This document shows positions 729-21,253 of a stretch of DNA of 27,308 nt, piece by piece; positions within the stretch are counted from its first letter, which is position 1, and each line of letters opens with the position of its first letter. A model generated the notes under the pieces. It was given only the letters and a program-made list of their open reading frames with translations, searched no databases and had not been told where the DNA came from. The translations under genes and the position numbers were made by a program. The DNA comes from a virus, in the IMG/VR virus record IMGVR_UViG_3300022752_006365, positions 1 through 27,308 of that record. One strand, given 5' to 3'.

Positions 729-1193
729 ATGAAGATCACAGTAAGACAATTGCGAGACATCATCAAGGAAGAAGTTTCTAGAGTTATTTCTGAAAACACG
801 ACCCTAGAACAATCCGCAGAAGATTATGCAAAATTTAAAGAAGGACAAAAGCATCTTGGTCTTTGGCTGCAGCTAGCATCAAAGATTCCAGATATTGATG
901 CGTTAAAAGAAGAAGCCCAAGGCGACTACTATCGTTTTTTTGATGCAGTCAAGAAAAAAGTCCCATCCGCACTCCCAAATTACATAGACATGTACTTCAA
1001 TATGGATGTGAACCGTGACCAAGCTGAAGAAATGCACAACGACTACGAAAAGTTGAAAGGATTCTTCAAAGAAGCAGATGTAACATCTGAACGTGACGTT
1101 CAATACGGTCGTAAAAGAACACAGGTTATTGATATTCGTACGGGCCAACCCGTTGATACCTTAGGTGGAACAGGCGGTTCTTTAGGAACTTGA
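729..1193 (+). CDS. Tagged small protein (candidate virion cargo), 154 aa
   Basis: The protein opens with MKITVRQLRDIIKEE, a member of the tag shared by ten proteins in this window, and contains an I-K-E tripeptide of the type cut by T4-like prohead proteases. After the tag come about 100 residues that look helical and highly charged, with an aromatic patch (GLWLQL) and IDMYFNMDV, then a glycine-rich end (TLGGTGGSLGT). No enzymatic motif is visible. The gene stands alone between two plus-strand genes of unknown role. By analogy with T4 internal proteins I infer it may be packaged in the capsid; this is not shown by the sequence itself. Confidence 0.8.
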   Translation: MKITVRQLRDIIKEEVSRVISENTTLEQSAEDYAKFKEGQKHLGLWLQLASKIPDIDALKEEAQGDYYRFFDAVKKKVPSALPNYIDMYFNMDVNRDQAEEMHNDYEKLKGFFKEADVTSERDVQYGRKRTQVIDIRTGQPVDTLGGTGGSLGT

Positions 1194-1259
1194 TTCTTCT
1201 ACAGATAGATTTCTAAATCTAAAAAACAAGAATTAGTTCCATGACGAATATTTATTGTC

Positions 1260-1550
1260 ATGGCATGGTCCATCATACCCAGCAGTAGCTTGGGAGAATG
1301 GAAAGTAGAAACGCCATCATGGGCGCAACCTACTGTTTGGTTGCCTGTCGAGGTTGGCTGTTTAGCTAGAGTTTTACCGATCGGTGGACCAATTTGGATG
1401 AATGAATTAGTCGTTGTTCTTGAAGAAATGAAAGTAAATGGAACAAAATTTGCTTACAGGGTTGCTGGAAGACTAGGTGAAACAACTCTACCGTATTATG
1501 CATTAGACATTCAAATGTATCCCAGCGGAAGCATAAACCGTAGATACTAA
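1260..1550 (+). CDS. Hypothetical protein, 96 aa
   Basis: The ORF has a start ATG preceded by TTATTGTC and no Shine-Dalgarno. The protein alternates hydrophobic and polar residues (VWLPVEVGCLARVLPIGG, MNELVVVLEEMKVNGTKFAYRV), which suggests a small beta-barrel or SH3-like domain, but I do not recognise the family. It ends at 1550, overlapping the stop codon of the converging minus-strand gene by four bases. Similar small beta-rich proteins are encoded at 2858 and 14431. Function unknown. Confidence 0.65.
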   Translation: MAWSIIPSSSLGEWKVETPSWAQPTVWLPVEVGCLARVLPIGGPIWMNELVVVLEEMKVNGTKFAYRVAGRLGETTLPYYALDIQMYPSGSINRRY

Positions 1551-2800
1551 TGACCAGATTTTTTTGGTCTACCGACATAGGGAAGCACCAACTTGTAATC
1601 GCCTGGTTTTTCCAAGATCACTTCTAATTTGACTTCTTCTGGAATCTTCAATCCAAGGTAATTTTCTATTGCTTCCTTTGGATTACGAACCAAATTAGCC
1701 TTGAATGATGGATCATCTATCGTTTTTTGTACAAGTCCAGCCTCTAATTCGCTACGAGAAACATTTGAAAAGAGGTTATGCCAATCCCTAGCTCTTTCTC
1801 GACTCTCTTCTGTAACTGGTGGTAGATCTTTACTAACCCCCGTTCGACCCTCTGGATGATCTGTCAAATTACCCTCCATAGGCCAGTTATAGAATACATC
1901 GTGTCGAGTGGTGATAGCGTCAGGATTGAGTATGGTACCGTAACCATCATCTTGCATGAGCCAATCGCACATATCCTTTGATGCGCTTTCTCCATGGTAA
2001 TAGTCCCAGCTAGAGTACCAGTCACCTACTCCCAGACGAGGTTCCGTCACTGACATACCGCTGTTTGGGCATCCGGCGCAAGATCCATCTTGGTCAGGCC
2101 ACCATAGAACTATGATGTCTCTATTGGAATTCGTTTGATCCTTTGCAAACTTTCGAGCATCGTCGTCAGACCAGCCATCCCAGAAATCGTTCTTGGGAGA
2201 ATGGAGGATGTTCCACTTCTTACCGATCACGTTCTTGACGAGATTGTATTTGAAAGCTGCCACGGTTTTGTCTGACGCTTCGTCGTATTTTGCTGGGTTA
2301 TAAAACCTCTGGTCTCCCACCTGAGGATTTCTACTAGGAAAGAACACGTCACCTCGGCCCAAGTCACTCACTGTAAAAGTCTTGCCTGTGAAAGGATCGT
2401 TGATCGTCTTATCCCAGTTTTCCTCTGGGTTAGTAGCATAATCGCCGAAGGAATCTTGCATCGTCTGGAAGGTGGTTGAGAATCTACCCCACACGTCACC
2501 GAAAGCCTTGTTGAGAGGTTCAGGCGTGTCGCTAGAGAAAGAACCCACGAGGCTTTGCATCGCATATCCCGTGATGGCCGCGCCAGGAAAATCTAAGTCA
2601 GCAACAACAGCCATGGCTATGTCCATGATTCCCGACACCCACTTCTGGGTAGGATCACCGCTACCGTCTTGCGAAAGCTTGAAATAGGCTTCGTTAACCG
2701 TATCTTGGCAAAAGCCATGCACGTGGTCAAGCCACTCTTGGATGTTGTAGCAGTTTTGTTGAAGTTGTTTGATTTGTTCTGGTGTTGGTATTTGTTTCAT
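1547..2800 (-). CDS. 417-aa protein with a C-terminal nitrile-hydratase-leader-like (NHLP) domain
   Basis: Residues about 349-417 match the pattern of the nitrile hydratase alpha / NHLP leader family: a helix (LEAGLVQKTIDDPSFKANL), the RNPKEAIENYLG stretch, then the hallmark IPEEVKLEV and a final strand KLVLP. In bacteria this domain serves either as part of nitrile hydratase or as the leader of RiPP precursor peptides, where it precedes the modified core. Here it is at the C-terminus of a large protein with only a nine-residue basic tail after it. The first 350 residues are rich in Trp, Asp and Tyr, contain a hydrophobic stretch (about 57-88) and a CAGC pair (241-244), and match nothing I know. 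The gene is more GC-rich than its neighbours, suggesting acquisition from a host. No nitrile hydratase metal-site motif is visible. Confidence 0.75.
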   Translation of the reverse strand: MKQIPTPEQIKQLQQNCYNIQEWLDHVHGFCQDTVNEAYFKLSQDGSGDPTQKWVSGIMDIAMAVVADLDFPGAAITGYAMQSLVGSFSSDTPEPLNKAFGDVWGRFSTTFQTMQDSFGDYATNPEENWDKTINDPFTGKTFTVSDLGRGDVFFPSRNPQVGDQRFYNPAKYDEASDKTVAAFKYNLVKNVIGKKWNILHSPKNDFWDGWSDDDARKFAKDQTNSNRDIIVLWWPDQDGSCAGCPNSGMSVTEPRLGVGDWYSSWDYYHGESASKDMCDWLMQDDGYGTILNPDAITTRHDVFYNWPMEGNLTDHPEGRTGVSKDLPPVTEESRERARDWHNLFSNVSRSELEAGLVQKTIDDPSFKANLVRNPKEAIENYLGLKIPEEVKLEVILEKPGDYKLVLPYVGRPKKSGH

Positions 2801-2827
2801 AAGCAGCTTAAAATAAAGTATAAATTA

Positions 2828-2846
2828 ATCTTTTGAATTAAAAGAT
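2828..2846. promoter_or_regulatory. Inverted repeat in the divergent promoter region
   Basis: ATCTTTT and AAAAGAT form perfect 7-base arms around GAATT. The repeat sits in the 57-base gap between the minus-strand NHLP-domain gene and the plus-strand gene at 2858, and its right edge touches the TATAAT hexamer of the latter. It is a plausible operator for a dimeric repressor but could arise by chance in AT-rich DNA. Confidence 0.35.
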
Positions 2847-3125: not shown

Positions 3126-4004
3126 ATGTCTGAAGAATTCAAGAAAGCATGTGGAAATACCCCTCTGATAAAAGTTTCAGATAAACTATATGCCAAATTA
3201 GAAACATTTAATCCTACCGGGTCTGTGAAGGACAGAATGATTGCCTATGTGCTATGTAAAGCAATCGAATCTGGTCACATCAAGTCTGGTACTGTCTTGT
3301 GCGAAGCGACGAGTGGAAATTCCGGTATATCTTTAAGCGCCTTAGCAGCCAGTATTGGATCGAGATGTGTCATCTTCATGCCGAGTAACATGTCTGAAGA
3401 AAGAAAGCAGATGATGCGTGTTTATGGGGCTGAGATTGTCGAGGCACCTCCCAGCGACTTTGAAGCGGCTATAAAGATGAGAGACGAATTTATTGTAGCA
3501 AATTCAGGGTCATGGTCTCCGATGCAGTTCAGCAATCCCGACAACGTTGAGTGTCACCGTACGATAACAGCGCCAGAAATATCCATGAAGACTTGGTTGA
3601 TGGGAGTGAAGTGGTCTGCATTCATCCATGGGTCTGGGACAGGTGGAACAATCGAAGGTATTAGACAATATGTTCGTAATGAATCTGGATTCTTGAAAGA
3701 CAATGGTCATGTCAAAGTTTGTATGGTCGTCCCCACCGAGTCGCCACACGGGATTCAAGGCATTGGAGACGGAAGAGATTTCCTTGCGAAGCAAGCCGAT
3801 ATGGATGAAACCATCGTAGTGAAGACAGAAGAAGCTATTGAAAGAGCCAAACGGTTTGCAAAAGAAACTGGTTTGCTCGTCGGGATTAGTTCAGGGGCAA
3901 ACCTTGTGGCTTCAGAACGATGGATAGACACAAACAAGCCCGACGGAATTGTTGTAACTATGTTGTGCGATAGAGGCGAACGGTATATGTCCTTGTACAG
4001 ATGA
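3126..4004 (+). CDS. Cysteine synthase (O-acetylserine sulfhydrylase family, PLP-dependent)
   Basis: This family joins O-acetylserine and sulfide to make cysteine in the cytoplasm, using pyridoxal phosphate. The landmarks are all present: NPTGSVKDR with the PLP-binding Lys at residue 35, the substrate loop TSGNSG (62-67), the phosphate-cradling GSGTGGT (169-175), HGIQGIGDG (208-216), GISSGAN (253-259) and a C-terminal CDRGERYMS. At 292 aa it is slightly shorter than usual CysK/CysM (about 300-320) but appears complete and active. The N-terminal region is trimmed, starting close to the GNTPL motif. It converges on the lipoprotein gene at 4005, stop to stop. A phage copy would act as an auxiliary metabolic gene for sulfur assimilation; CysK versus CysM specificity cannot be decided here. 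Confidence 0.93.
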   Translation: MSEEFKKACGNTPLIKVSDKLYAKLETFNPTGSVKDRMIAYVLCKAIESGHIKSGTVLCEATSGNSGISLSALAASIGSRCVIFMPSNMSEERKQMMRVYGAEIVEAPPSDFEAAIKMRDEFIVANSGSWSPMQFSNPDNVECHRTITAPEISMKTWLMGVKWSAFIHGSGTGGTIEGIRQYVRNESGFLKDNGHVKVCMVVPTESPHGIQGIGDGRDFLAKQADMDETIVVKTEEAIERAKRFAKETGLLVGISSGANLVASERWIDTNKPDGIVVTMLCDRGERYMSLYR

Positions 4005-4577: not shown

Positions 4578-4579
4578 AT

Positions 4580-4641: not shown

Positions 4642-4657
4642 TGATATGATCATATCA
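4642..4657. promoter_or_regulatory. 16-base perfect palindrome spanning the -10 and start codon of the SpoU gene
   Basis: TGATATGATCATATCA is perfectly symmetrical. It contains the -10-like TATGAT (4645-4650) and ends on the A of the ATG at 4657. A dimeric protein bound here would block both polymerase and ribosome access to the promoter of a gene with no Shine-Dalgarno. A comparable 16-base palindrome covers the GroEL start codon. Confidence 0.45.
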
Positions 4658-5220
4658 TGCCGTACGATCCAGAAAGCCCATTTTGCCAGTGGACACGAAA
4701 TGTCATCGATGAATTTAAGGGATTGACAAACGAAGAAATCAACCAACGTTTGGATCAACGCTCAAACGAATTTGCAATCCTGATGACGCACATCAATGGT
4801 GACTTTAACATTGGAACAGTGCTACGATCTGCAAATTTCCACGGCGCGAGGGATTTCTATTATTTAGGAAGAAAGAAATTCGATCGAAGAGGTTGTGTTG
4901 GCGTTCATAACTACACAAAGATGCAATTTATCGATGATATCGATGGCGTCTTTGAAATCAAAAAGAATTACACATTAGTCGCCCTTGAGAACAACATTTC
5001 CGAAACCGTGTCTTTATACGATTTTAACTGGAATCTTGAAAAGCCGCCCTGCATTGTAGTCGGCGAAGAATGTAATGGAATTCCGCAAGAAGTGTTGAGT
5101 CTATGCGACAAGTTTGTTGAGATTCCAAACTACGGTTCTGTTCGAAGTATGAATGTCGGAGCAGCTGCTTCGATTGCAATGCACGATTATGTGAGCTCTA
5201 AGCGCAGGAGAAAGTCATGA
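4657..5220 (+). CDS. SpoU/TrmH-family (SPOUT) RNA ribose methyltransferase
   Basis: SPOUT enzymes transfer a methyl group from S-adenosylmethionine to a 2'-O-ribose of tRNA or rRNA, using a deep trefoil knot. The three family motifs are clear: motif 1 NIGTVLRSA (51-59) with the conserved Arg, motif 2 VVGEECNGIP (134-143), and motif 3 from EIPNYG through SMNVGAAASIA (155-174) forming the knot. At 187 aa it is a single-domain protein lacking the extra N-terminal RNA-binding domain of RlmB-type enzymes, similar in size to TrmL/TrmH. It is translationally coupled to the following lipoprotein gene by an ATGA overlap. The RNA target cannot be deduced; modification of host tRNA or rRNA during infection is an inference. 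Confidence 0.9.
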   Translation: MPYDPESPFCQWTRNVIDEFKGLTNEEINQRLDQRSNEFAILMTHINGDFNIGTVLRSANFHGARDFYYLGRKKFDRRGCVGVHNYTKMQFIDDIDGVFEIKKNYTLVALENNISETVSLYDFNWNLEKPPCIVVGEECNGIPQEVLSLCDKFVEIPNYGSVRSMNVGAAASIAMHDYVSSKRRRKS

Positions 5221-6213: not shown

Positions 6214-6375
6214 TTATTTCTCTGCATTTCCCATTTGATCATATTCGCTTCCATCACCTTGGTGGTTTAACTGGACAGATTCAGGATCACCTGATTGTTC
6301 ATGCCCTTGATCAACGGAATCTTCTTCAATTATTTCTCTAATAATTTTTCTAAGCTCATTTAATTTAATTTTCAT
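6214..6375 (-). CDS. Tagged mini-protein, 53 aa
   Basis: This short gene has an ATG at 6373-6375 and TAA at 6214-6216. Its first residues, MKIKLNELRKIIREIIEED, belong to the shared tag and contain the I-R-E tripeptide. The remainder (SVDQGHEQSGDPESVQ to DQMGNAEK) is acidic, Gln/Gly/Ser-rich and probably disordered. If the tag is cut at I-R-E, only about 40 residues would remain, similar to T4 internal peptides. It is divergent from the tagged kinase-like gene at 6402, with a 26-base shared regulatory gap, and convergent with the MazG-like gene. Function unknown; tag assignment is firm. Confidence 0.75.
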   Translation of the reverse strand: MKIKLNELRKIIREIIEEDSVDQGHEQSGDPESVQLNHQGDGSEYDQMGNAEK

Positions 6376-6401: not shown

Positions 6402-7136
6402 ATGAAAAAAGATTTATTAAAAGCTTATATCAGAGAATTGATCAATGAAATGGCAATGGAAGATGTCGAAACGTCTTCTGATCCTCTTGATTGGATAACT
6501 GCTGCATACCAAAGCCCAGAAGAATGGGAATCAAAAACTCCTTTTGAGGCAATGCTTAAAGCATTGAGCAAATTTGGATTAAAGCAAATCGGAGAAGGAA
6601 GTTCACGATTAGTGTTCGAACTTGACGGAAATTCAGTCGTTAAATTGGCTAAAGATGAAAAAGGTCTGGCACAAAATGAACTTGAAGTCACGGCAGGAAG
6701 AGATCCTCAAGTAGAATCGATCATTTCTGGGGTGTTAGATTATGATCCAGAATTTTATTGGGTCGTTTCAAAGAAAGTCATCCCTCTTCATGATGCAGAA
6801 GTTTCTAAAGCGGAAAAAATTATAGGAGTTCCGTGGAATGAAGTAAGAAAAACGATGGGACTATCTGCAAGATCAGAATATGATGCAACTGCGCCGGTGG
6901 GAGGACAAAAATCTGGGGTTACACAACGAGTTCAACCAGTAGGAAGAGAAAACTGTATGACCGGCAATGACTTTTTATCCGCAATTTCTTCCTTCATGGA
7001 AAGGTATAAAGACATGTTGCCAGGGGATCTTGCGAAGTTGTCTTCTTGGGGAATTACAGGTGAAGGATGTTTGGTTTTGTTGGATTATGGAATCACAACA
7101 AAGAAGTTCAGAGAACTATATAAACAAAATCAATAA
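6402..7136 (+). CDS. Tagged kinase-like protein, 244 aa
   Basis: The N-terminus MKKDLLKAYIRELINEM is a divergent tag carrying I-R-E and I-N-E. From about residue 60 the sequence follows a protein-kinase-like fold: Gly-rich loop GEGSSRLVF (64-72), beta-3 Lys at 81 in VVKLA, a QNELEV helix that could give the alpha-C Glu, hinge-like WVVSKKVIPL, and near the end LVLLDYG (DYG at 228-230) in place of DFG. The usual HRD-N catalytic loop is absent; GDLAKLSSWGI (208-218) occupies its place. I recall the same arrangement in unannotated marine phage proteins. It may be an atypical kinase or a pseudokinase, and the tag suggests it could be packaged and injected. Activity and targets are unknown. Confidence 0.72.
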   Translation: MKKDLLKAYIRELINEMAMEDVETSSDPLDWITAAYQSPEEWESKTPFEAMLKALSKFGLKQIGEGSSRLVFELDGNSVVKLAKDEKGLAQNELEVTAGRDPQVESIISGVLDYDPEFYWVVSKKVIPLHDAEVSKAEKIIGVPWNEVRKTMGLSARSEYDATAPVGGQKSGVTQRVQPVGRENCMTGNDFLSAISSFMERYKDMLPGDLAKLSSWGITGEGCLVLLDYGITTKKFRELYKQNQ

Positions 7137-7183: not shown

Positions 7184-7873
7184 ATGAGTACAAATTTGCT
7201 TTCAAGAATTTCAAGCACAATGATGTGTGATGGATTGTCTCCTACTCAAGAGATGATCACATATGCAATTGCATGTGACTCTTATGCTGATGGAACAATT
7301 TCCGCAGAAGAACTTCAACTTGGAATGTGCAAATATCTTGATCAATCTGCGAGACGATCAAGATCACTTTCTGAAGTCATCAATAGAATCAAAGAACCTT
7401 CAATTTCTGAAGTTTTTACAGAATGCACAATCATGATGATTGATGCGGTGTTGAGGTCAAAAGATTTCATTCATAAAGGCCTTAAGGTGACATCAGAAAA
7501 TAACATAAAAATTGATAAAGGAAAATATGTTAAACCAGATGTGGCAATTTGGAGGGATGACAGGATCATCGGAGTGATTGAATGTAAAACCAGCCTCGGA
7601 AGAGCCAGAAATGAATGGGAAAATTCTTTCAATGAAAGAATTAAAATTTTTGAAAGCGTTGGAATCAATAAAGATTTTGTGTTCCTATTTGTTGCGACGG
7701 AAAATTGCTGGCAAGGATTTCCAGCTGCTGATCCTCGAACCATGTCTACATGGTTCTCTATTTGTCCCAAAGGAACTTGGTTCGGAGGAGGAAAACAAGG
7801 TGAAGTAAAACTTTCAGAAAAAATGAATAAAGAATCTTTGGCGAAGCTAATTGAAAAGCTAAAGCTTCTATAA
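7184..7873 (+). CDS. PD-(D/E)XK nuclease-fold protein, 229 aa
   Basis: The core motif is KPDVAIW (P118-D119) followed 14 residues later by the strand GVIECKTS (E133-x-K135), the metal-binding signature of restriction-endonuclease-like nucleases; a Glu at about 80 in a preceding helix (SEVFTECTIM) may complete the site. The first 70 residues are helical and the C-terminal part is Trp/Gly-rich (TWFSICPKGTWFGGGKQG). The protein could degrade host DNA, act in recombination or be a defence effector; the fold does not tell. No methylase gene is adjacent, so a restriction-modification pair is unlikely. It converges on the tagged HTH gene with a six-base overlap. Confidence 0.8.
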   Translation: MSTNLLSRISSTMMCDGLSPTQEMITYAIACDSYADGTISAEELQLGMCKYLDQSARRSRSLSEVINRIKEPSISEVFTECTIMMIDAVLRSKDFIHKGLKVTSENNIKIDKGKYVKPDVAIWRDDRIIGVIECKTSLGRARNEWENSFNERIKIFESVGINKDFVFLFVATENCWQGFPAADPRTMSTWFSICPKGTWFGGGKQGEVKLSEKMNKESLAKLIEKLKLL

Positions 7874-8257
7874 TTTTTCATCTTCTAAAGATTCGTCATC
7901 ATCAGAATCTTTATCTTTGGATAATCTTTTTTCTGTCTCTTTTTCTTTTCTTTCTTCATCTTGAAATTTATCTTGAGCTGTGTCGAGCTTCGGCGACATA
8001 GAGATGTAATCGTACATTCTTCTTGTACTGACTCCTAAAGATTTTGCTGCTTTAGTAGCATCTCCACCGGTTGCAGCTAAAGCTTTCATTGCATCCGAAA
8101 TTGCTCCGGATTTTTCAATTCTAAATTTTGCGCCAAAATCAGTCAATCCTCCGCCTGGTGTGTTATCTTCGTTTAATAAAGAAGATTCAATAATTTCTCT
8201 TATCAGCTGTCTTAAAACAACGATTTTTGGATCAATTTTGCTCATTTTATTTGTCAT
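7868..8257 (-). CDS. Tagged helix-turn-helix protein with acidic tail, 129 aa (or 125)
   Basis: Two in-frame ATGs (8257 and 8245) are possible; both keep the tag LRQLIREIIESSLLNE with I-R-E and I-I-E sites. A Gly-rich linker precedes a helix-turn-helix of the Fis/HTH_8 kind, GDATKAAKSLGVSTRRMYDYI, which would bind DNA. The last 45 residues are highly charged (EERKEKETEKRLSKDKDSDD) and probably disordered. Combining a packaging-type tag with a DNA-binding helix suggests an internal protein associated with packaged DNA or an injected regulator; that is inference. It diverges from the fibre gene across an operator-like inverted repeat. Confidence 0.78.
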   Translation of the reverse strand: MTNKMSKIDPKIVVLRQLIREIIESSLLNEDNTPGGGLTDFGAKFRIEKSGAISDAMKALAATGGDATKAAKSLGVSTRRMYDYISMSPKLDTAQDKFQDEERKEKETEKRLSKDKDSDDDESLEDEKL

Positions 8258-8264
8258 AACTATT

Positions 8265-8296
8265 GTATCAATATATCTTTTTTATATTGTTGATAC
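8265..8296. promoter_or_regulatory. Inverted repeat between divergent HTH and fibre genes
   Basis: GTATCAA (8265-8271) and TTGATAC (8290-8296) are perfect 7-base arms with an 18-base AT-only-rich spacer. The left arm overlaps a minus-strand TACAAT and the right arm overlaps a plus-strand TACATA near the GTG at 8305, so each arm sits on one of the two -10-like elements. A dimeric repressor or activator site is plausible. Confidence 0.35.
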
Positions 8297-8304
8297 ATAT
8301 TCTC

Positions 8305-10392
8305 GTGAGCACTACGCAAATAAAAGGCAGCCAGATACAAGATGGTACGATCAAGTCGGCAGATATTGATGATGATCTTGAAAAAGACTTCACTAAATCT
8401 AGGATTTCAATCAATGATTCTTCGTCGGGGTTCTTATCATCAAAAATCCTTGCTGGAGATAATATAACGATCAACATAGTTGGTTCATCAGGATCAATTC
8501 AATATCTTGCAATATCTGGATCTGCTTCTGGCGGCGGGTCTTCAGGACAAGATTTCTTTTCTAGCGCAACGACTAATTCCATCATCGCAACTGGATCTGT
8601 CGCACTTCGTGGACAAGAACAAATAAGTTCTCCATCCGCAAAGGGACAAGATGTTTTCTTCTATGTTAGCGGAACGCTAGGCAGTTCGTCTTCTCCCAAA
8701 ATTTCATTATTTGGAGGAGACGTTGTAGTCTCTGGTTCATTAAATTCAGCAGGCGGATTATCTGTAACAGGAAACTCTGTGATCTCTGGAGATGGAGCGT
8801 TTCTAGGAACATTAACGGTTCTAGACGACGTAAATGTTGAAGGAAAAATTAACATTTCTTCAGGCGCAGACGTAACAGGATCTGTTAAATTTGTCAACGG
8901 ATTGAGCGGATCACTGACAAATTTAATCGATGGATCTTCATATCTTATAGCAGGTCCAAACGTAGCTATAACTACGGGATCTAATGGATCAATCACAATT
9001 TCATCGAATGTGTCTGAAGGATTTCAAGGACCGCAAGGAGTCCAAGGAAGTACTGGTTCACAAGGCGTTCAAGGAGAAATTGGTGTGACGGGTCTCACAG
9101 GGCCGCAAGGTCCTCAAGGAGAAGTAGGGTCAGTAGGATCGCAAGGTGCCACAGGAAACCAAGGGCCTCAAGGGTTGATTGGTTCTCAGGGTCCTCAAGG
9201 CTATGCTGGACCTCAAGGATACCAAGGCGAAACTGGTCTTCAAGGCGTTATGGGAAATCAAGGCCTTCAAGGAAGTACTGGTTCGCAAGGCCCTCAAGGA
9301 GAAATGGGGTCCACAGGACCACAAGGTCTTCAAGGAAACCAAGGACCGCAAGGAGAAACCGGATTGCAGGGTTCTCAAGGGTACCAAGGGCCGCAAGGAC
9401 CACAAGGTCTTCAAGGAAATCAAGGTTCACAAGGATTAACAGGGCAACAAGGTGTTCAAGGTGCACAAGGAAGTCAAGGGTCTCAAGGTAACCAAGGCGT
9501 TATAGGAGCACAAGGAGAGGCTGGTCCTCAAGGATGGCAAGGTCAAATAGGACAGCAAGGATCCCAAGGTTTTCAAGGACATCAAGGGTATCAAGGTGAA
9601 ACTGGATCTTCCGGTCCTCAGGGTACACAAGGAAGCCAAGGATCAACAGGGCAACAAGGTCTTCAAGGTTCACAAGGAAATAACGGAGATAATTTCTTTT
9701 CTAGCTTAACGAGCGCATCGATTATAACAACGGGTTCTTTGGCTTTAAGAGGACAAGAATCGATTAGCTCACCTGCAGAAAAAGGACAAGATGTTTTCTT
9801 CTACGTCAGCGGAACCTTGGGTTCGATATCTTCTCCTAAAATTTCTCTATTTGGCGGTGATGTTATAGTATCAGGATCCTTAAATAGCGCCGGTGGATTG
9901 TCTGCGACTGGAAATGCAATTGTGTCTGGAGATGCTGCAATTCTAGGAACTCTTAATGTCTTAGATGATATTAATATTGACGGTGAACTTTCAGTTTCAA
10001 CTGGTGCTACTTTTACGGGAGCAGTTACAGTTAGTGGAAGCTTCGAAGTAGCAAAAGGTTATAGCTTTAACATAGGACAAGCTTCAGTGACTCAAACAGG
10101 TAGCTTGACGTCTTCTGTTACTGTCAATTCTGCTTCTGGGGTCATAACGACCGTGAATGCTTCTATAGGTTCAAACAACTCACAAAGTTTTACAGTAAAC
10201 AACAATGTCGTGACTTCAACTTCAGTCGTTGTTGCTTCTATTGGAGACTATTCAGGCACATTTGGAACCAACGGACATCCATATATTCATGTAGATTCAA
10301 TAACCAACGGATCTTTTAACATTAGAATAATTAATTCCCATAGTTCCAGCTCAATAAATGGAACATTTAAAATAAAATTCATAGTATCATAA
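8305..10392 (+). CDS. Large collagen-like fibre protein with duplicated beta module, 695 aa
   Basis: I chose the GTG at 8305 because the protein then begins STTQIKGSQIQDGTIK, a typical phage fibre/appendage N-terminus, whereas the upstream TTG would add an artificial hydrophobic leader. Order of domains: N-terminal attachment region (about 1-80); beta-rich module A (about 83-182) ending in VSGSLNSAGGLS and GTLTVLDDVNVEG strands; collagen-like Gly-X-Y shaft (about 239-460) dominated by GPQ, GSQ and GLQ triplets; module B (about 463-562), a close copy of module A; and a Ser/Asn/Thr-rich C-terminal head (563-695). It should form a trimeric fibre on the virion, with the head contacting the host. 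It is first in a run of four collagen-like genes and differs from the other three in both ends. Confidence 0.85.
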   Translation: MSTTQIKGSQIQDGTIKSADIDDDLEKDFTKSRISINDSSSGFLSSKILAGDNITINIVGSSGSIQYLAISGSASGGGSSGQDFFSSATTNSIIATGSVALRGQEQISSPSAKGQDVFFYVSGTLGSSSSPKISLFGGDVVVSGSLNSAGGLSVTGNSVISGDGAFLGTLTVLDDVNVEGKINISSGADVTGSVKFVNGLSGSLTNLIDGSSYLIAGPNVAITTGSNGSITISSNVSEGFQGPQGVQGSTGSQGVQGEIGVTGLTGPQGPQGEVGSVGSQGATGNQGPQGLIGSQGPQGYAGPQGYQGETGLQGVMGNQGLQGSTGSQGPQGEMGSTGPQGLQGNQGPQGETGLQGSQGYQGPQGPQGLQGNQGSQGLTGQQGVQGAQGSQGSQGNQGVIGAQGEAGPQGWQGQIGQQGSQGFQGHQGYQGETGSSGPQGTQGSQGSTGQQGLQGSQGNNGDNFFSSLTSASIITTGSLALRGQESISSPAEKGQDVFFYVSGTLGSISSPKISLFGGDVIVSGSLNSAGGLSATGNAIVSGDAAILGTLNVLDDINIDGELSVSTGATFTGAVTVSGSFEVAKGYSFNIGQASVTQTGSLTSSVTVNSASGVITTVNASIGSNNSQSFTVNNNVVTSTSVVVASIGDYSGTFGTNGHPYIHVDSITNGSFNIRIINSHSSSSINGTFKIKFIVS
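8551..8850 (+). repeat. Duplicated 300-base module, copy A (before the collagen shaft)
   Basis: This in-frame segment encodes a beta-rich module with GQDVFFYVSGTLGS, SPKISLFGGDV and VSGSLNSAGGLS. It is matched at the same length by 9691-9990 on the other side of the collagen shaft, with strong protein and clear DNA similarity (for example the shared GGACAAGATGTTTTCTTCTA). Confidence 0.85.
9019..9684 (+). repeat. Collagen-like repeat tract, first fibre
   Basis: About 220 codons of uninterrupted Gly-X-Y triplets. The Y position is nearly always Gln or Thr, as in GPQGPQGEVG, with few charges. At DNA level this gives a nine-base rhythm of CAAGGN, prone to slippage and recombination with the similar tracts at 10.8, 11.9 and 13.1 kb. 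Confidence 0.85.
9691..9990 (+). repeat. Duplicated 300-base module, copy B (after the collagen shaft)
   Basis: This is the partner of 8551-8850, offset by 1140 bases and equal in length, so no net insertion or deletion separates the copies. It encodes GQDVFFYVSGTLGS, SPKISLFGGDV and VSGSLNSAGGLS again. Most differences look synonymous or conservative, pointing to selection on the protein after duplication. Confidence 0.85.
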
Positions 10393-10583
10393 TAAGAACA
10401 CCAATACCTTTTAATCTTGGTGCATCGATTACAACAAATTTAGATAAAGAAAATTAAAATTCTTTGTAATGAAAAATTCTATAAAGAATTTGTAAATCAT
10501 GAAATAAATATTTCTGGCATAGTTTGACGTGCGGATGTTGCTGTGCGTTGAGCATGATCTGTATTTCTAGAAAGGATTTGATC
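10393..10583. other. 191-base intergenic region with AT-rich inverted repeats
   Basis: No gene is visible. It holds CACCAA/TTGGTG arms just after the first fibre gene, perfect 9-base arms AAATTCTTT (10457-10465) and AAAGAATTT (10483-10491), and GAAATA/TATTTC arms at 10501-10514. None is followed by a T-run, so a classical intrinsic terminator is not supported. The end carries the AAAGGA ribosome-binding site of the next gene at 10571-10576. It may house the promoter of the three-gene fibre operon. Confidence 0.4.
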
Positions 10584-11753: not shown

Positions 11754-11755
11754 TC

Positions 11756-12844: not shown

Positions 12845-12846
12845 TC

Positions 12847-13974
12847 ATGGCGATTTTATCAAGAAGAAATTTAGGATCAGTAGAAGTCTTACGTGTTAAT
12901 TCAAATCCAAACGGAGTCGTATCTTCTACTGTTAAATCTCTTGCAAAACACATAAATGGCAATGTTTATGAATGTCAAGGCGGAACAAGTTGGATTCTTC
13001 TTCAGACATTTTCAAACGTAAAACCGTCTGCTTCTTCTGTCATCATAGGAGACGGATCAGGACCTCAAGGTGCGCAAGGGCCTCAAGGTTCGCAAGGATC
13101 TCAAGGACCTCAAGGCTCGCAAGGTGCACAAGGACATCAAGGGTTTCAAGGTCCTCAAGGATCTAAAGGAGCACAAGGAGCACTAGGGGCACAAGGTTTC
13201 AACGGTTCACAAGGTCCGCAAGGATCGCAAGGATTGCAGGGTCCACAAGGTGCTCAAGCAGCGAAAGGCGCTCAAGGTCCACAAGGATCTCAAGGATCTC
13301 AAGGATCACAAGGCGCATCAGGAGCAAATGGAACGCAAGGAATTCAAGGAAATTCTGGTACTCAAGGATCTCAAGGTTCGCAAGGTTCTCAAGGTGTGCA
13401 AGGATCTCAAGGAAATCAAGGAACTCAAGGATCACAAGGCTCATCAGCTGCAGCAGGAAGCAGCTTGGTTTTAATAGCTAGCGATAACAAAGCTTCAAAC
13501 GGACAATACGTCGACTTTAGCGGACTAGACGGAGATACTCAAAAAATTTACATTATTAAACAAAGAATTGTTAAACCAGTAACAACAAGTTATACATACT
13601 ACTTCTATCCTAACCAAAGCTCTTCTGGTTTGTCTGTCATAAACCATTATGCATATTGGACAAATAGCCCAAATACTGGAAATACCGGCGTCAATTCAGT
13701 TAGCAGCAATTCAACAGGAGCATATGCATCTTCTGGAGGTATTGATATATGGAATGTAACCATGTATGTTTTCGCAGAAAGACCGAATAGAATGGCGATA
13801 ACAGAATTATCCCGATACGGGGTAGCATCATCAACTACCGTTTATGAAATGAATCAACCTTTTATAAGGTGGTCAAACACAACTGACAATTTGACGTCAA
13901 TACGTCTTGCTTCAAATAATGCATCTGGATTTGGTGCAGGAACTGAAACGTTCTTATACAGATTGGAAGTTTGA
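12847..13974 (+). CDS. Collagen-like tail-fibre paralogue 3, 375 aa
   Basis: It starts [17 protein letters not shown], closest to paralogue 1 in the anchor (SNPNG shared). The collagen shaft spans about residues 72-198, with interruptions [10 protein letters not shown] and AQAAKGAQ. The head opens [18 protein letters not shown] and closes [13 protein letters not shown] to ETFLYRLEV, the same frame as the others around a different central region. The start lies two bases beyond the stop of paralogue 2 (TAATCATG). Last gene of the fibre operon; the next gene at 14005 has its own ribosome-binding site. Confidence 0.87.
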
Positions 13975-14004
13975 TAAAATTAAAAATTTATAGGAAAATC
14001 TTTC

Positions 14005-15086: not shown

Positions 15087-15401
15087 TTATCTACGATGGT
15101 CGGCTTTAGGAGTAACATGCCAATTTTGTGTGTACGGATCGATGAACACCCCTGGCTCTTGAGCAAGTGGAGGAACCGGTCCATAGCAATCTTCCATGTC
15201 AAACTCTGGTTCCATTAAATGAGCTGAAATTTCATCTTCTTCTTTTTTTCTCTTCTTTCCCAAATAAGGAATTTCATCTCTTTGAGAAAGATGAGGAGAC
15301 ATTAAATTTGTTAGATGAGGACCATCTACGTTGCTATAATATGCTTCTTGCAAAATGCAACGTATATAATGTCTTAAGATAAAATCTTTTGAGCTATTCA
15401 T
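15087..15401 (-). CDS. Tagged small protein, 104 aa
   Basis: The ATG at 15401 is used in preference to the TTG one codon earlier. The start MNSSKDFILRHYIRCILQEA is the most divergent version of the tag: the L-R-x-x-I-R-x-I-L-x-E spacing is kept and L-Q-E provides the cleavage-type tripeptide. The body is acidic and Pro-rich with a Lys/Glu patch (GKKRKKEEDE) and ends YTQNWHVTPKADHRR. It is followed in the same direction by the HNH gene. GATAGTTA sits six bases upstream of the start, the same element as before the genes at 729 and 3126. Function unknown. Confidence 0.7.
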   Translation of the reverse strand: MNSSKDFILRHYIRCILQEAYYSNVDGPHLTNLMSPHLSQRDEIPYLGKKRKKEEDEISAHLMEPEFDMEDCYGPVPPLAQEPGVFIDPYTQNWHVTPKADHRR

Positions 15402-15545: not shown

Positions 15546-15722
15546 TTAGTTCTCCTCTTTTTTTGTTTTTTTATACAATTTCATGCTCTCTGAAATTTTT
15601 CTTTTTTGTTCTTCGGACATTTTTCGTCCTTTTCTATTTTTTGGACTTTTAGTTTGACCAGTATAAATTTTAGAATTTAATGTGTTCGTAATTGCATAAA
15701 CGTAATAAATGATATTTCTCAT
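15546..15722 (-). CDS. Miniature GIY-YIG/NUMOD3 protein (deletion remnant), 58 aa
   Basis: The first 25 residues, IYYVYAITNTLNSKIYTGQT with its flanks, are the opening strands of a GIY-YIG nuclease (YVY for GIY, IYTG for YIG). They are joined almost directly to one NUMOD3 DNA-binding motif (GRKMSEEQKRKISESMK). The 60-70 residues that carry the rest of the catalytic domain, including the Arg and Glu needed for cleavage, are missing. The full gene at 26428 in this window shows the normal order. It therefore looks like an internal deletion product that stayed in frame; it may still bind DNA. TATACT precedes the start by seven bases. Confidence 0.7.
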   Translation of the reverse strand: MRNIIYYVYAITNTLNSKIYTGQTKSPKNRKGRKMSEEQKRKISESMKLYKKTKKEEN

Positions 15723-15729
15723 GCATGTA

Positions 15730-15735
15730 AGTATA
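15730..15735 (-). promoter_or_regulatory. -10-like TATACT before the miniature GIY-YIG gene
   Basis: Read on the minus strand, TATACT ends seven bases before the ATG at 15722, without a ribosome-binding site. It lies in the 20-base gap after the IF-1 gene, so the remnant can be transcribed independently. Confidence 0.35.
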
Positions 15736-15742
15736 CATAAGG

Positions 15743-15961
15743 TTACTTTCGCCGCATAATGCGTCCCCGCGTGGTATCGTAAGGCGACACCTCAATGATA
15801 ACCTCATCGCCGGGCAAAACCATAATGTGGTTTTGTCTCATCTTACCTGACAATGTTGCTAAAACAGTTTGTCCTGTTGTAGTTTTAACTTCAAACAACG
15901 TTCCAGGAAGCGACTCAACTACTTTACCGATTAATTCCATTCTATCTTCGCGATCATTCAT
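15743..15961 (-). CDS. infA: Translation initiation factor IF-1, 72 aa
   Basis: IF-1 is a single OB-fold that binds the 30S A site and works with IF-2 and IF-3 in start selection. The match is collinear through the whole fold: MELIGKVVESLPGTLFEVK, then the signature LSGKMRQNHIMVLPGDEV and the end VSPYDTTRGRIMRRK. Starting at the ATG at 15961 gives 72 residues, the usual bacterial length; an upstream in-frame ATG at 15982 would add seven residues and overlap the preceding gene. It begins one base after the stop of the tagged gene 15963-16178 and belongs to the leftward series from GroEL. A phage-borne IF-1 is unusual; it might alter host initiation or favour phage messages. Confidence 0.93.
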   Translation of the reverse strand: MNDREDRMELIGKVVESLPGTLFEVKTTTGQTVLATLSGKMRQNHIMVLPGDEVIIEVSPYDTTRGRIMRRK

Positions 15962-15962: not shown

Positions 15963-16178
15963 TCATGACGATTCTTCTTCATAAACTAACTCTTCATTCT
16001 CCTTTTCTTCAATTTCATCACCAGAATCTTTTCCAAGTCCTGGTGGAACTCCGTATGTTATGCCTCTGCCTGGTTGACTTAACCTAGCACCATTCATTGC
16101 AATTCCTGCAGTCCATCTAAGATTACGTTCCATTTCTTCCCTGATCATTTTTCTCAGGGCCAACATTGTTATCTTCAT
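15963..16178 (-). CDS. Tagged small protein, 71 aa
   Basis: It opens MKITMLALRKMIREEMERN, a canonical tag with I-R-E. The middle (WTAGIAMNGARLSQPGRGI) is Gly-rich and the C-terminus strongly acidic (EIEEKENEELVYEEESS). The ribosome-binding site is ATAGG before TATGAATC-ATG, inside the upstream gene: the first 56 bases, which code the tag, overlap the end of the gene 16123-16530 in another frame. IF-1 follows immediately. No known domain; inferred candidate internal virion protein. Confidence 0.75.
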   Translation of the reverse strand: MKITMLALRKMIREEMERNLRWTAGIAMNGARLSQPGRGITYGVPPGLGKDSGDEIEEKENEELVYEEESS

Positions 16179-16739: not shown

Positions 16740-18356
16740 TTATACCTTGGAATCATTTAAAACGACGGCGTCCAAAGTCATAAACAACTTTGCTACAGAA
16801 GTTGAATTTTTTAGGGCCGTTTTTGTCACTTTGGCTGGATCAATTATACCTGCTGCAATTAAATCGATAAACCTTCCAGTTGATGCATCATATCCTAATT
16901 TTTGACCCTTATTTCTTAGCATTTCATCTTCAACAACGTCAGATGATTTATCTGAATTTTCTACGATTCTTCTCAACGGAGCCTTGCAAGCTTTTAAAAC
17001 GACCTCAATTCCTGCAAGAACATCTCTATCATGATCTGCACTAAGAAGAACAGCTTTTGATTCTTCTGCAGCATAGAACAATGCTGAACCTCCTCCGGGA
17101 ACGATTCCATCTTCTGCTGCCGCTCGAGTTGCATGAAGGGCATCTTCTATTCTGTACTTTCGTTCGATCATTTCAATTTCAGTTGCACCTCCAACCTTAA
17201 TGATTGCAACGCCTGAAGATAATCTTGCAATTCTCATTTTTAATGCAGACAATTCTTCATGACCCAGCGTAATGTCAGTAGCTCGTGTTCTCAAATCTTC
17301 TACATGTGAACTTACTTTTTCTTGAGAAGATTCTGTTCCAACAATGGTCGTAGATTTTGCATCTACTACAATCTTCTTTGTTTTACCAAGCTCATTCAAC
17401 GTAGCTTTGTCTAAAGTGATTCCATTAATGCTTGAAATTAATGTAGCACCGGTTAGAACGCAAATGTCATTCAAATAGTCGGTTCTTGATGGACCAAATC
17501 CAGGTGCTTTGATTGCAACAACCTGTAATTGAGTTTTAACTCTATTTAGAACCAACCCCTGTAAAGCTTCTCCTTCAACATCATCTGCGACGATCAACAG
17601 AGGTTTTCTTACTTCAACAATTCTTTCAAGAATTTGAAGAATTTCCTTTATCGTAGAAATCTTCTTGTCTGTAACTAAAACGTATGCATCATTATACATT
17701 GAATGCATTTTTTCGTTATTTGTAACGAAGTAAGGAGAAAGATATCCTCTGTCAAATTGCATGCCGTCGACAACATCAAAGCTAGTTGCAGTTCCTTTTG
17801 CGTCTTCAACTGTTATGATTCCATCTTTTCCAACCTTATCCATCGCTGCAGCAATGATTTCACCAATTTTTTCATCACCGTTTGCGCTAATCGTTCCGAT
17901 TTGTTTTATTTTTTCTGATGATTCAACCGGAGTAGACATCATCGACAGAAAGTTTGTAATAGTCTTGGAAGCTAGATCAAATCCTTCACAGAGCTTTTTT
18001 GAATTGTATCCAGCATCAAGTAATTTGACGCCGTCTTTTACCAAAGCATGAGTTAAAACAGTCGATGTTGTCGTTCCATCTCCAGCGACATCGTTGGTTT
18101 GAGAAGCAGCTTCTCTTAACAGCTGGGCTCCCATCATTTCCAAAGGATCTGGAAGCTTGATCGATTTGCTTACAGTTACTCCGTCCTTGGTTATAATTGG
18201 AGAATTATTACCGTTTTGAATTAAAACTGTTTTTCCATTCGGACCCAAAGTGCAGCTTACGGCTTCAGCAGCTAATCTTAGACCGTTGTAAAGCTTCTTT
18301 CTTGCGTCTTTTGAAAAGACAATCCCAACATTACTTTGCTCTTGTTCAGATGACAT
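16740..18356 (-). CDS. groL: GroEL-type chaperonin (Hsp60), 538 aa
   Basis: The group I chaperonin is complete from the equatorial start (KDARKKLYNGL, TLGPNGKTVL) to the end. ATPase landmarks are intact: ITKDG with the Asp at 58 (E. coli Asp52), DVAGDGTTT with Asp at 93 (E. coli Asp87), and IEDALHATRAA carrying the Asp398 equivalent. The apical region keeps GMQFDRGYLSPYF and PLLIVADDVEGEAL. It ends at VVLNDSKV, without the Gly-Gly-Met tail that fills the cavity of most bacterial GroEL. No GroES gene is seen in this window, so it may borrow the host's or another phage co-chaperonin. It leads a leftward operon; a 16-base palindrome covers its start codon. Confidence 0.96.
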   Translation of the reverse strand: MSSEQEQSNVGIVFSKDARKKLYNGLRLAAEAVSCTLGPNGKTVLIQNGNNSPIITKDGVTVSKSIKLPDPLEMMGAQLLREAASQTNDVAGDGTTTSTVLTHALVKDGVKLLDAGYNSKKLCEGFDLASKTITNFLSMMSTPVESSEKIKQIGTISANGDEKIGEIIAAAMDKVGKDGIITVEDAKGTATSFDVVDGMQFDRGYLSPYFVTNNEKMHSMYNDAYVLVTDKKISTIKEILQILERIVEVRKPLLIVADDVEGEALQGLVLNRVKTQLQVVAIKAPGFGPSRTDYLNDICVLTGATLISSINGITLDKATLNELGKTKKIVVDAKSTTIVGTESSQEKVSSHVEDLRTRATDITLGHEELSALKMRIARLSSGVAIIKVGGATEIEMIERKYRIEDALHATRAAAEDGIVPGGGSALFYAAEESKAVLLSADHDRDVLAGIEVVLKACKAPLRRIVENSDKSSDVVEDEMLRNKGQKLGYDASTGRFIDLIAAGIIDPAKVTKTALKNSTSVAKLFMTLDAVVLNDSKV

Positions 18357-18818: not shown

Positions 18819-19706
18819 TTATTTTTTATCATATTTCCTGGACATTTTTAGAGCTTTATCTTTTTTTACTCCTCCTGCCATATAAACTTTCATTTTATAG
18901 TCTGCAGAATCGGTGTCACCGTCTCCATCCATGTCTTCTTTTTTATTTTCTTCTTCTTTTAACTCATCAAGGATAAATTCTCTTATTACTTTTTTTAATT
19001 TATTGATGTCAGAAGATTCACCAAATTTTGATGCGGCTGATTTAACACCTCTGGCCATATACATTGAAGGATCAACTTTGGGTGCTTGCATAGATTTATA
19101 TCCTGCAATGTATTTTGAAGGATCTTCTGCTTTCTTTGCATATAATCCATCAAGAGTATCATCAATCATTTGTTTCAACTTTGGCTCATCTTCAGGACTT
19201 TCTCCTCTTCCAGGATCGACCATAAGATGCCATTCAGTAACTTTTTCTTCGATGTATCTTCTAAATTCTGGATCTAGTTTTAAGGGATGATCATCGCTAA
19301 GATTATCATCTCGCTTCAACATGTTTTCTAAGGTATCATATAAAACCATGTCATCTATTCCACCTGGAACTGCAAATATGTGATCTTCTAAGTCATCTTT
19401 GCTGAGAAATAATTTTCCGTCTTTTGAAGTAGGAGCAGCCTTAAATGCAGCTTCTTTTCCTTCTGGGCTCATTAATGTCGTTACTGTTTCTCTAATCAAC
19501 TTACGTAACTCAGATAAGTTTATTTTCATGGTTTCATTCCTCTCAACATTTTCTGCTTCAATTGCTGCAATCTGCCCTCTTGCTTTCTTTTTGGACGTAT
19601 GGCAATTACGGTGCTTTTTTCCTTTTTTATCCGTGTATGACAAAACGTACGTACCACTATCACCATCGGATTGCTTGCATTTTTGTTTTCTTATCGTATA
19701 AGGCAT
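18819..19706 (-). CDS. Composite protein with internal tag, second tag-like helix and EF-hand-like loop, 295 aa
   Basis: Residues 1-59 form a basic Cys/His-containing domain (KQKCKQSDGDSG, KKHRNCHTSKKKARGQI). Residue 60 is a Met that opens MKINLSELRKLIRETV, a perfect copy of the tag found elsewhere only at N-termini, and AGAGGA lies eight bases before this internal ATG (19529). The gene may therefore make two products: full length and a 236-aa tagged form. A second tag-like helix (INKLKKVIREFILDELKEEE) lies near the C-terminus, followed by DMDGDGDTDSAD, an EF-hand/dockerin-type calcium loop, and a basic ending. This reads like a fusion of separate modules. Role unknown; a packaged protein is inferred. 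Confidence 0.75.
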   Translation of the reverse strand: MPYTIRKQKCKQSDGDSGTYVLSYTDKKGKKHRNCHTSKKKARGQIAAIEAENVERNETMKINLSELRKLIRETVTTLMSPEGKEAAFKAAPTSKDGKLFLSKDDLEDHIFAVPGGIDDMVLYDTLENMLKRDDNLSDDHPLKLDPEFRRYIEEKVTEWHLMVDPGRGESPEDEPKLKQMIDDTLDGLYAKKAEDPSKYIAGYKSMQAPKVDPSMYMARGVKSAASKFGESSDINKLKKVIREFILDELKEEENKKEDMDGDGDTDSADYKMKVYMAGGVKKDKALKMSRKYDKK

Positions 19707-19713: not shown

Positions 19714-19926
19714 TTATTTCTTGCTCGTTGAGAGTCCCATGTCTTTTGCCCATTTTTTAATTTTCTTTTTTATATCATCAGGTACATACACGCTTCCGTC
19801 ATTAAAAGCAGAATCATCTAAAAGTTCTTTATCATAACTTTCTTCTGGATGAGATCCTGCTTTAATATCGTGAACTTTAACAAATTCTCTGATTAACTTT
19901 CTTAATGTTAGTTCTTCTTTGTCCAT
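19714..19926 (-). CDS. Tagged small protein, 70 aa
   Basis: The start MDKEELTLRKLIREFVKVHD is a tag variant with I-R-E. The rest is short and charged: an acidic segment (ESYDKELLDDSAFND), a YVPDDIKKKIKKWAKDMG helix, and a Lys-rich end. The size and layout resemble the T4 internal peptides that follow capsid-targeting sequences. It precedes the composite gene by seven bases in the same direction, so both are likely made together. No known domain. Confidence 0.75.
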   Translation of the reverse strand: MDKEELTLRKLIREFVKVHDIKAGSHPEESYDKELLDDSAFNDGSVYVPDDIKKKIKKWAKDMGLSTSKK

Positions 19927-19933: not shown

Positions 19934-19939
19934 CTTATA
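19934..19939 (-). promoter_or_regulatory. -10-like TATAAG before the tagged gene at 19926
   Basis: On the minus strand TATAAG ends seven bases before the ATG at 19926 and no ribosome-binding site is present. The 29-base gap also serves the divergent lipoprotein gene at 19956, which by contrast has AAGGTG at normal spacing. Confidence 0.35.
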
Positions 19940-19955
19940 TTTAAGGTGTGAACTA

Positions 19956-20267: not shown

Positions 20268-20270
20268 AAA

Positions 20271-20292
20271 AGGCCCTGGTTTCCCAGAGCCT
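20271..20292 (-). terminator. Intrinsic terminator for the minus-strand lipoprotein gene
   Basis: On the minus strand AGGCTCTGG-GAAA-CCAGGGCCT forms a nine-pair stem with one mismatch and a GAAA loop, directly followed by TTTTTTATTTTT. It stands 24 bases after the stop of the Gly-rich lipoprotein gene. On the plus strand no T-run follows, so it serves leftward transcription. Confidence 0.8.
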
Positions 20293-20316
20293 CATTCGTA
20301 TAAACTAATTTAAAAA

Positions 20317-20586
20317 TCAGTTTCCGCCTTGCCCACCAGCACCGCCAACAGATGAAGTAGATCCGCCTTGCCCACCGGTACCCTTTGATCCGCCGGCTGA
20401 GTCAGAAGAGCCACCGTCTCCTCCTGCGCCGCCAAGACCACCCTCACCACCTGAGCCTCCTTGACCCCCAGTAGCTGATGAAGTGACAGTCACGGTCGCG
20501 GACGTTGACCCTGTCTCTGACTTCTTGTCCTCGCAACCGAAGACAAAAGCCGCAACACAAAAAATTGACAATACTTTCTTTGACAT
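20317..20586 (-). CDS. Gly/Ser-rich lipoprotein of myxobacterial style, 89 aa
   Basis: The ATG at 20586 (seven codons inside the longest frame) has AAAGG at good spacing and begins directly with the signal peptide MSKKVLSIFCVAAFVFGC, lipobox V-F-G-C. The whole mature chain is low complexity: a charged start (EDKKSETGS), TVTVTSS, then GG-rich repeats such as GGQGGSGGEGGLGGAGG to the end. There is no folded domain after the linker. Such Gly-rich linkers after a lipobox are common in Myxococcota lipoproteins, where they tether a domain; here the tether ends in nothing. DNA is GC-rich because of the Gly codons. It may coat the host surface or be a truncated host-derived gene. Confidence 0.75.
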   Translation of the reverse strand: MSKKVLSIFCVAAFVFGCEDKKSETGSTSATVTVTSSATGGQGGSGGEGGLGGAGGDGGSSDSAGGSKGTGGQGGSTSSVGGAGGQGGN

Positions 20587-20672
20587 TTTATAACCTTTCG
20601 ATACCATCTAATGAAAGATGTTATCAACGATTATATCACGACATCAAGAATGTTTATACTAAGAAAGTTAAA

Positions 20673-21077
20673 TCACTTTCCTTTAAGAATCTTAGAAACA
20701 GGTTTTGTAGACCACATGCGGCAGGCCCAGTAGGCTGCTTTTGTTCTATCTGAAGCTCTGGGAGTACCGCATCCATGTCTGGCTCTAAAAGATTTTCTTG
20801 CCTTTGGATTATCTCTACGAATTTCCATGTTAGGATCTCCGAATTCGACTTTTTTCACATTACCAGTTTTTTCATCTTTGACATAAACTTTGTATTTTTT
20901 TACGTCGCCACGCATCGGTTTTCCTAGAGAAACTTCCCTACCTTTATACTCTGCTTCTAAGATAACTTCTTCTGAAATAGTTTCAAAATCAAGCTCAAAC
21001 TGGTCTAAAACGCCAAAGGCTTCAAGCATGACAGCTTCTTCTATAATTTCTTTAAGGATTTCAGGAGTAATTTTCAT
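20673..21077 (-). CDS. Tagged conserved phage protein with Cys-rich C-terminus, 134 aa
   Basis: The tag MKITPEILKEIIEEAVM carries I-E-E. The body from residue 60 reads GREVSLGKPMRGDVKKYKVYV, then KTGNVKKVEFGDPNMEI and a terminal block FRARHGCGTP to AAYWACRMW. I recall this last module as widespread in myoviruses and their metagenomic relatives, usually of unknown role. Two Cys and His residues in the end block could bind a metal. Its ATG overlaps the stop of the upstream 59-aa tagged gene (ATGA), so the two are coupled. It is probably a structural or packaged protein. Confidence 0.8.
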   Translation of the reverse strand: MKITPEILKEIIEEAVMLEAFGVLDQFELDFETISEEVILEAEYKGREVSLGKPMRGDVKKYKVYVKDEKTGNVKKVEFGDPNMEIRRDNPKARKSFRARHGCGTPRASDRTKAAYWACRMWSTKPVSKILKGK

Positions 21078-21253
21078 GTTTCATCTTCCTTAGAATCTTC
21101 TTCTTCAATTCCGTCAGGAAATCCATCGTAGTATAACTCTTCTGGGTTGTCTACTGGTTCACCGGTGGACGGTTCATAACGCCCAGGAGGATAATTAATT
21201 TGTCCCAAGACCTCTTTAATTAATTCTCGTAATTGTCTTACAGTTATCTTCAT
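21074..21253 (-). CDS. Tagged mini-protein, 59 aa
   Basis: A short gene from ATG at 21251-21253 to TGA at 21074-21076. Its first 14 residues, MKITVRQLRELIKE, match those of the protein at 729-1193 at all but one position; after this the two diverge completely, which suggests shuffling or copying of the tag itself. The remainder is Pro/Tyr/acidic-rich (NYPPGRYEPSTGEP, EELYYDGFPDG, EEEDSKEDET) and likely disordered. It overlaps the next tagged gene by ATGA and is divergent from the gene at 21289. Confidence 0.75.
   Translation of the reverse strand: MKITVRQLRELIKEVLGQINYPPGRYEPSTGEPVDNPEELYYDGFPDGIEEEDSKEDET

Follow-up and report, generated by a model that had tools for sequence, protein, structure and literature searches.

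A short N-terminal tag on unrelated phage proteins as a probable prohead-core targeting propeptide

In a 27,308-nucleotide virus record from IMG/VR (IMGVR_UViG_3300022752_006365; this whole stretch is called the window here), we found that small proteins with unrelated bodies share an N-terminal tag, copies of which span positions 729-21253. We think it very probable that the tag is a propeptide that targets proteins to the prohead core in a set of large, mostly uncultured phages with a T4-type head module, by which we mean a portal, an S77 protease and a major capsid protein related to that of T4. The sequences contain the tag itself, its hydrophobic-x-E end, the protease, a similar motif in the capsid protein and a tagged gene near the protease; from these we infer docking, cutting and packaging. 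In the proposed mechanism, the basic amphipathic segment MKITKxQLRxIIKEE, together with a short linker and L-x-E, would dock cargo on the scaffold during head assembly, and a gp21-type (S77) protease would next cut, mostly after L-x-E near residue 22, leaving the mature cargo in the head beside the DNA. The cargo would then be delivered into the next host with the DNA; delivery lies one step past targeting and removal, and we regard it as fairly probable, with less certainty than those steps.

The shared opening and its second hydrophobic-x-E motif

An earlier note on this DNA had named ten open reading frames (ORFs, designated here by their first coordinate) with a common opening, and an (I/L)-x-E tripeptide in every copy. 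All ten ORFs are present and each contains the tripeptide. The shared opening held for nine of them, six found by a profile and three that are variants (19714, 7868 and 6402); 15087 is unsupported as a tagged protein, neither the profile nor a looser core pattern detecting a tag in it. To train the profile, we took 180 unique 16-mers from viral contigs other than the window, leaving out the locus of its near relative, the 211-kb IMG/VR contig G019; 80 random viral loci, which total 751 kb and contain 23,383 start sites, served as background. With this profile, the six window N-termini score 19.4-40.5 bits and the top random start site scores -2.0. The core pattern, which was fitted after the window sequences had been seen, matches 9/10 window proteins as against 0/4,941 random viral ORFs.

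The literal form MKIT...L(R/K)..I(K/R/E)E is present in four proteins only (729, 15963, 20673 and 21074), and two more, 6214 and the internal ATG at 19529, open with MKI(K/N). Among the variants, 19714 keeps L8-R9-x-L-I-R-E14 in exact register and has DKEE at residues 2-5 instead, 7868 has the tag core seven residues further in, followed by L-L-N-E, and 6402 was aligned by eye to MKKSELKSLIKECIKE, a shorter tag variant on head-cluster genes. Behind the tags, the bodies show no relation to each other by BLASTP, in line with what had been claimed: the best non-self E value is 0.077, for a single pair, with none better. Five of the six blocks that align between the window and G019 are 95-98.5% identical, with their order inverted, and the sixth (375 bases) is 78% identical. 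A profile scan of G019 found 17 start sites above 14 bits (among 24 scoring -12 or better).

In a set of 216 unique tags, residues 1-15 are all highly informative apart from residue 6; the information is 1.5 bits at residue 16, 0.7-0.9 bits at residues 17-21, 1.05 bits at residue 22 (E in 39%) and 0.2-0.5 bits from residue 23 onward. The majority consensus is MKITKxQLRxIIKEExxxxLxE, taken from an alignment of 148 family representatives (the families with the longest members, of 184 families in a wider locus set). When the 205 tagged proteins of at least 60 residues were grouped by their bodies (BLASTP E 1e-4), they formed 174 families, and thus this short N-terminal segment sits on unrelated bodies. 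In 120 of the 174 families, the segment ends in an (L/I/V/M/F)-x-E with its E at residues 19-24, as against 25.5 ± 4.4 families in 500 shuffles (maximum 38), and the same test in four later intervals of equal size gave 15-20 families. This second hydrophobic-x-E lies outside the tag search pattern. It is followed by one of the residues A, S, Q, G, T and N in 74/119 cases (L/I/V/M sites; background 0.343, p 7e-10).

Protease, head genes and reach of the tag

The earlier note had proposed looking for a gp21-like prohead protease. We searched with PF03420 (T4 gp21 protease, S77) a set of 35 distinct tag-bearing contigs of at least 60 kb, taken from among the IMG/VR matches listed, and a control of 29 random contigs of at least 41 kb, drawn from 80 of 114 random loci. 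The protease scores above cut-off in 25/35 tag-bearing contigs, G019 included, and in 2/29 random contigs (Fisher p 1e-7). By size, it is found in 21/23 tag-bearing contigs of at least 100 kb and in 4/12 smaller ones.

In G019, the genes follow the order portal, protease, two tagged genes, scaffold-like gene, major capsid protein and tagged gene, with untagged genes between them; portal, protease and capsid protein are named by PHROGs and the scaffold by its position alone. In 24/25 S77 contigs, a conserved tagged family is encoded downstream of the protease at a distance of no more than about 3 kb (in three of them in wider stretches only). In the 22 distinct sequences of this family, one of which comes from a metagenome-assembled genome (MAG), L8, K9, K13 and E18 never vary, conservation is 90% or more at E14, E22 and G23, and the register is that of the cargo tag. 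Other head loci, for example L146, L151, L152 and L153 (among the matches listed), also have additional tagged genes close to the protease. We found major capsid proteins in 16 of the 20 head loci examined (L156 and L161 are the same in the stretch compared), and in 16/16 of these loci the column of T4 gp23 E65 (LTE65/A), the cleavage site of T4 gp23, contains an (L/I/V)-x-E whose next residue is A, S, Q or T. This match is suggestive.

To see how far the tag reaches, we searched with a strict DNA pattern and a relaxed pattern. The strict pattern found at least 120 stretches in IMG/VR, and its codon-reversed control found 0 matches there. The earlier note's reading would suffer if the tag were equally common in cellular proteins unrelated to capsids; across genomes of bacteria and archaea totalling 257 Gb, the strict pattern finds 6 stretches on 4 contigs only. 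Of the four MAGs that hold these contigs, one has S77 on a 305,838-base contig, the same size as its tag contig, one has S77 on a different contig and two are without S77. The relaxed pattern matches 35/35 tag-bearing contigs (1-27 matches each) as against 0/29 random contigs, and its reversed control gave 0 matches in the 35. Tags and protease also agree in strand, which could reflect strand bias of the whole genome; we gave this agreement no weight. Relaxed-pattern matches numbered 0 in T4, Mel-JY01, immuto, RM378, Cr30 and LR756511 and 7 in LR756508 (484 kb), one of the seven containing an in-frame stop. A tblastn search of a phage collection with a 26-residue tag, a weak query because it is a short peptide, matched a single record, that of an uncultured phage of 484 kb. 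In the open-access literature, we found no published description of this tag.

By eye, in the LR756508 locus (L169), the capsid gene is preceded by five successive small genes with tag-like starts, and several genes after it have short M-x-L-K-x-L-L-x-E-like openings. Proteins after this capsid gene also looked ADP-ribosyltransferase-like by eye; Pfam gives this no support.

Alternative explanations and what weighs against a packaging tag

The tag could in principle act at the level of translation start or RNA and not as a peptide signal. Its core motif, counted across 2,046 ORFs from loci that bear the tag, is mostly at the start codon (247 copies near the N-terminus and 30 internal, with 1 in shuffled bodies), and a Shine-Dalgarno-like sequence lies upstream of 153/219 tags. 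Many of the 30 internal motifs are start-codon artefacts or chance, but several copies without a Met occur inside longer proteins, for example at residue 371 in L058, residue 70 in L110, residue 134 in L112 and within window ORF 18819-19706, and L009, L021 and L046 each hold two tags within one frame. Codon entropy at the conserved tag positions is also about that of the bodies, and lower at residues T4, R9 and E14. The mostly body-like codon entropy and the copies without a Met suggest that selection acts on the peptide. Codon changes between the window and G019 likewise speak against an RNA-level element: 22 are synonymous and 7 nonsynonymous in the tags (bodies, 66 and 30; the gapped gene 6214 gave no count), none of the 7 at a motif residue, and the tag at 19529 alone has 8 and 0. 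Such an element is highly improbable. If the signal is a peptide, it could still be cut elsewhere, and the earlier note had placed the cut after I-x-E at residue 14. There I-(K/R)-E14 is nearly invariant, partly through search design. However, only 18/174 families have a small residue after this first site and 85% of tags have an E there, unlike the capsid site, and conservation continues to about residue 22. Because small residues follow the second site and rarely the first, a predicted cleavage site near residue 22 is more likely than one after I-K/R-E14, and we consider a cut at residue 14 decidedly unlikely.

It is improbable that the tag instead sorts proteins to another phage-made site, such as a replication compartment, a membrane or a multi-protein complex, and stays uncut. 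An amphipathic N-terminal helix could serve for such sorting, AlphaFold predicts, with low confidence, that residues 2-16 form a helix in one copy, and 54/174 families are without the second site; yet the unit ends at hydrophobic-x-E followed by small residues, resembles the capsid motif and occurs on genes near the protease. Descent from one ancestral internal protein, with its N-terminus fixed and its bodies diverged, would keep the packaging shared without shuffling the tag as a module, and we judge it unlikely. Such descent fits the observation that most of the 148 representative bodies match no family: Pfam accounts for at most 12 of them and PHROGs for at most 23. However, distinct domains carry the tag, with Pfam matches, one member each, to YkuD, DnaJ, AAA_33, GNAT and tRNA-ligase phosphodiesterase. 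Moreover, phrog_7595 (E 6e-12), whose 96 positions leave no room for a tag, matches residues 42-122 in the body of gene 20673-21077, the alignment starting at profile position 8. Further single-member Pfam matches among the 148 are to DUF5824, EF-hand, Toprim and PepSY, and the named PHROGs are polynucleotide kinase, ATPase and acetyltransferase, with weak matches to tape-measure for one member (E 3e-4) and to one virion-structural family; no named replication or terminase PHROG is among them.

Several observations weigh against a prohead-targeting propeptide. A non-exhaustive search of the open-access literature found no virion proteomics of a tag-bearing phage, and Mel-JY01 and immuto, whose capsid proteins make them the closest cultured relatives, have S77, with the relaxed tag not found in them. 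The second site at residues 19-24 is absent in 54/174 families and, in the window, is missing from the copies at 15963, 19529, 19714 and 21074. We call the capsid-site match suggestive because capsid proteins hold further hydrophobic-x-E sites, such as LLE/N. Two of the 23 large and eight of the 12 smaller tag contigs, which may be fragments, have no S77 match. Contig size also confounds the link to the protease: among smaller contigs S77 is found in 4/12 as against 1/27 controls (p 0.025), and at 100 kb or more in 21/23 as against 1/3 (p 0.052), with one 107-kb control in both size comparisons. In the 27-kb window itself, the PF03420 search did not find S77 (the control search was also silent), and no head gene is among the 20 window proteins scanned; the head genes sit in G019. 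Finally, the conserved family next to the protease was not found in one S77 contig, G005, where other tag-like genes flank the protease.

Taken together, these data suggest that the proteins are cargo with a removable capsid-targeting tag, much as the earlier note had proposed. The protease, the tagged head-cluster genes in G019, the second site and the capsid motif argue for it, with the set reduced to nine and the predicted cut moved to about residue 22. We give about even weight to a broader picture, in which a lineage of large phages carries one portable zip code of 22 residues by which dozens of unrelated, fast-changing effectors are loaded into the head and delivered with the DNA. Some of these phages would string several cargoes into polyproteins with internal tags, to be cut apart by the head protease, and the tag would probably have arisen from a conserved core protein encoded near the protease. 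As a rule, it takes proteomics of a cultured phage to learn which of its proteins are head-borne and injected. If the packaging reading is true, candidate injected effectors, almost none with a known function, could be listed from many genomes of uncultured phages. The tag would also make a new sequence class of packaging signal, open to tests of cargo loading into phage heads.

Features of the window and comparison with known systems

Table 1. Tag copies, variants and doubtful members in the window
Feature	Positions	Strand	Description
Tag of gene 729-1193	729..794	+	40.5 bits; I-K-E 12-14; I-S-E 20-22, predicted cleavage site; G019 ortholog at 184753 retains motif
Tag of gene 6214-6375	6310..6375	-	22.3 bits; I-R-E 12-14, I-E-E 16-18
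Variant tag, short register, gene 6402-7136	6402..6449	+	By-eye likeness to MKKSELKSLIKECIKE; below profile detection
Variant tag of gene 7868-8257	8168..8257	-	Core pattern; missed by strict profile
Doubtful member 15087	15087..15401	-	L-Q-E alone in common; likely start ATG 15401
Tag of gene 15963-16178	16113..16178	-	22.8 bits; without second L-x-E
Tag-like internal stretch without Met, ORF 18819-19706, residue 237	18954..19010	-	LKKVIRE...L-K-E
Tag at internal ATG of ORF 18819-19706	19464..19529	-	19.4 bits
Variant tag of gene 19714-19926	19861..19926	-	-8.2 bits, seventh-best window start; core pattern
Tag of gene 20673-21077	21012..21077	-	20.2 bits; M-L-E 17-19
Tag of gene 21074-21253	21188..21253	-	35.9 bits; L-I-K-E 11-14

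In ORF 18819-19706, a 59-residue in-frame segment precedes the tag at 19529; in two phages, here (- strand) and in L040:4706-5011, similar N-terminal modules of some 59 residues precede a tagged protein as in-frame fusions. By eye, most tagged window genes have no Shine-Dalgarno sequence, unlike the 153/219 tags elsewhere, and this scarcity may reflect a different host group. Two functions had been assigned to window cargo. The kinase-like look of 6402 could not be verified: the protein has no Pfam match, AlphaFold gave a predicted local distance difference test score (pLDDT) of 46.8 on two sequences, and its sole relative is 97% identical. Its body matches phrog_4301, of unknown function, from residue 37. 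The helix-turn-helix proposed for 7868 finds an HTH_8 match in Pfam (E 0.0012) that is sub-threshold.

Among the other genes in the window, we found a three-gene cassette of DUF444, SpoVR and PrkA serine kinase at 21932-26370 (+; Pfam E 1e-108, 1e-115 and 9e-139), an untagged GroEL-type chaperonin at 16740-18356 (-; Cpn60_TCP1 E 7e-71), and genes for a pyridoxal phosphate-dependent enzyme (PALP), presumably cysteine-synthase-like, and a SpoU methylase at 3126-4004 (+) and 4657-5220 (+). For PrkA and SpoVR in phage genomes, a literature search listed one paper, on a jumbo phage. Two ORFs that look by eye like GIY-YIG endonucleases, at 26407-27234 (+) and 15546-15722 (-), lie mostly within the gaps of the alignment with G019 (26370-27181 and 15576-15747), as expected of homing insertions. 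Four collagen-like proteins with GxQG repeats are encoded at 8263-13974 (+); positions 10752-13993 are unaligned to G019 except for one 375-base piece (78%), and because most of this region does not align, we regard it as fast-varying.

The closest known system is that of the T4 internal proteins, which are described as having N-terminal propeptides of 10-19 residues with core affinity, cut by gp21 after L/I-x-E and sufficient to load foreign proteins (PMC9026906). As with this T4 capsid-targeting sequence (PMC9026906), the tag would be an N-terminal propeptide common to diverged proteins, with L/I-x-E, an S77 protease and a T4-like portal and capsid. It differs in its length of about 22 residues, in its up to 27 matches per contig as against a few in T4, and in its internal copies in some proteins. 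T4 ipIII opens with MKTYQEFIAE, and the tag differs from it in sequence, consistent with the lack of relaxed-pattern matches in T4. In phage P1, the N-terminal 30 residues of DarB are enough to bring a reporter into the head (PMC9024508); compared by description only, DarB is unlike the tagged proteins in being one very large protein, and that account describes no tag family. In SPN3US and phiKZ, a gp21-related protease is described as stripping N-terminal propeptides from ejected head proteins (PMC5694885, PMC9026906). These propeptides are often longer than 100 residues (SPN3US gp45, with 20, is an exception) and the phiKZ cleavage motif is S/A-x-E (PMC5694885, PMC9026906), whereas the tag has about 22 residues and L-x-E. 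By analogy with T4, we propose that the tag, although different in sequence, follows the same functional logic.

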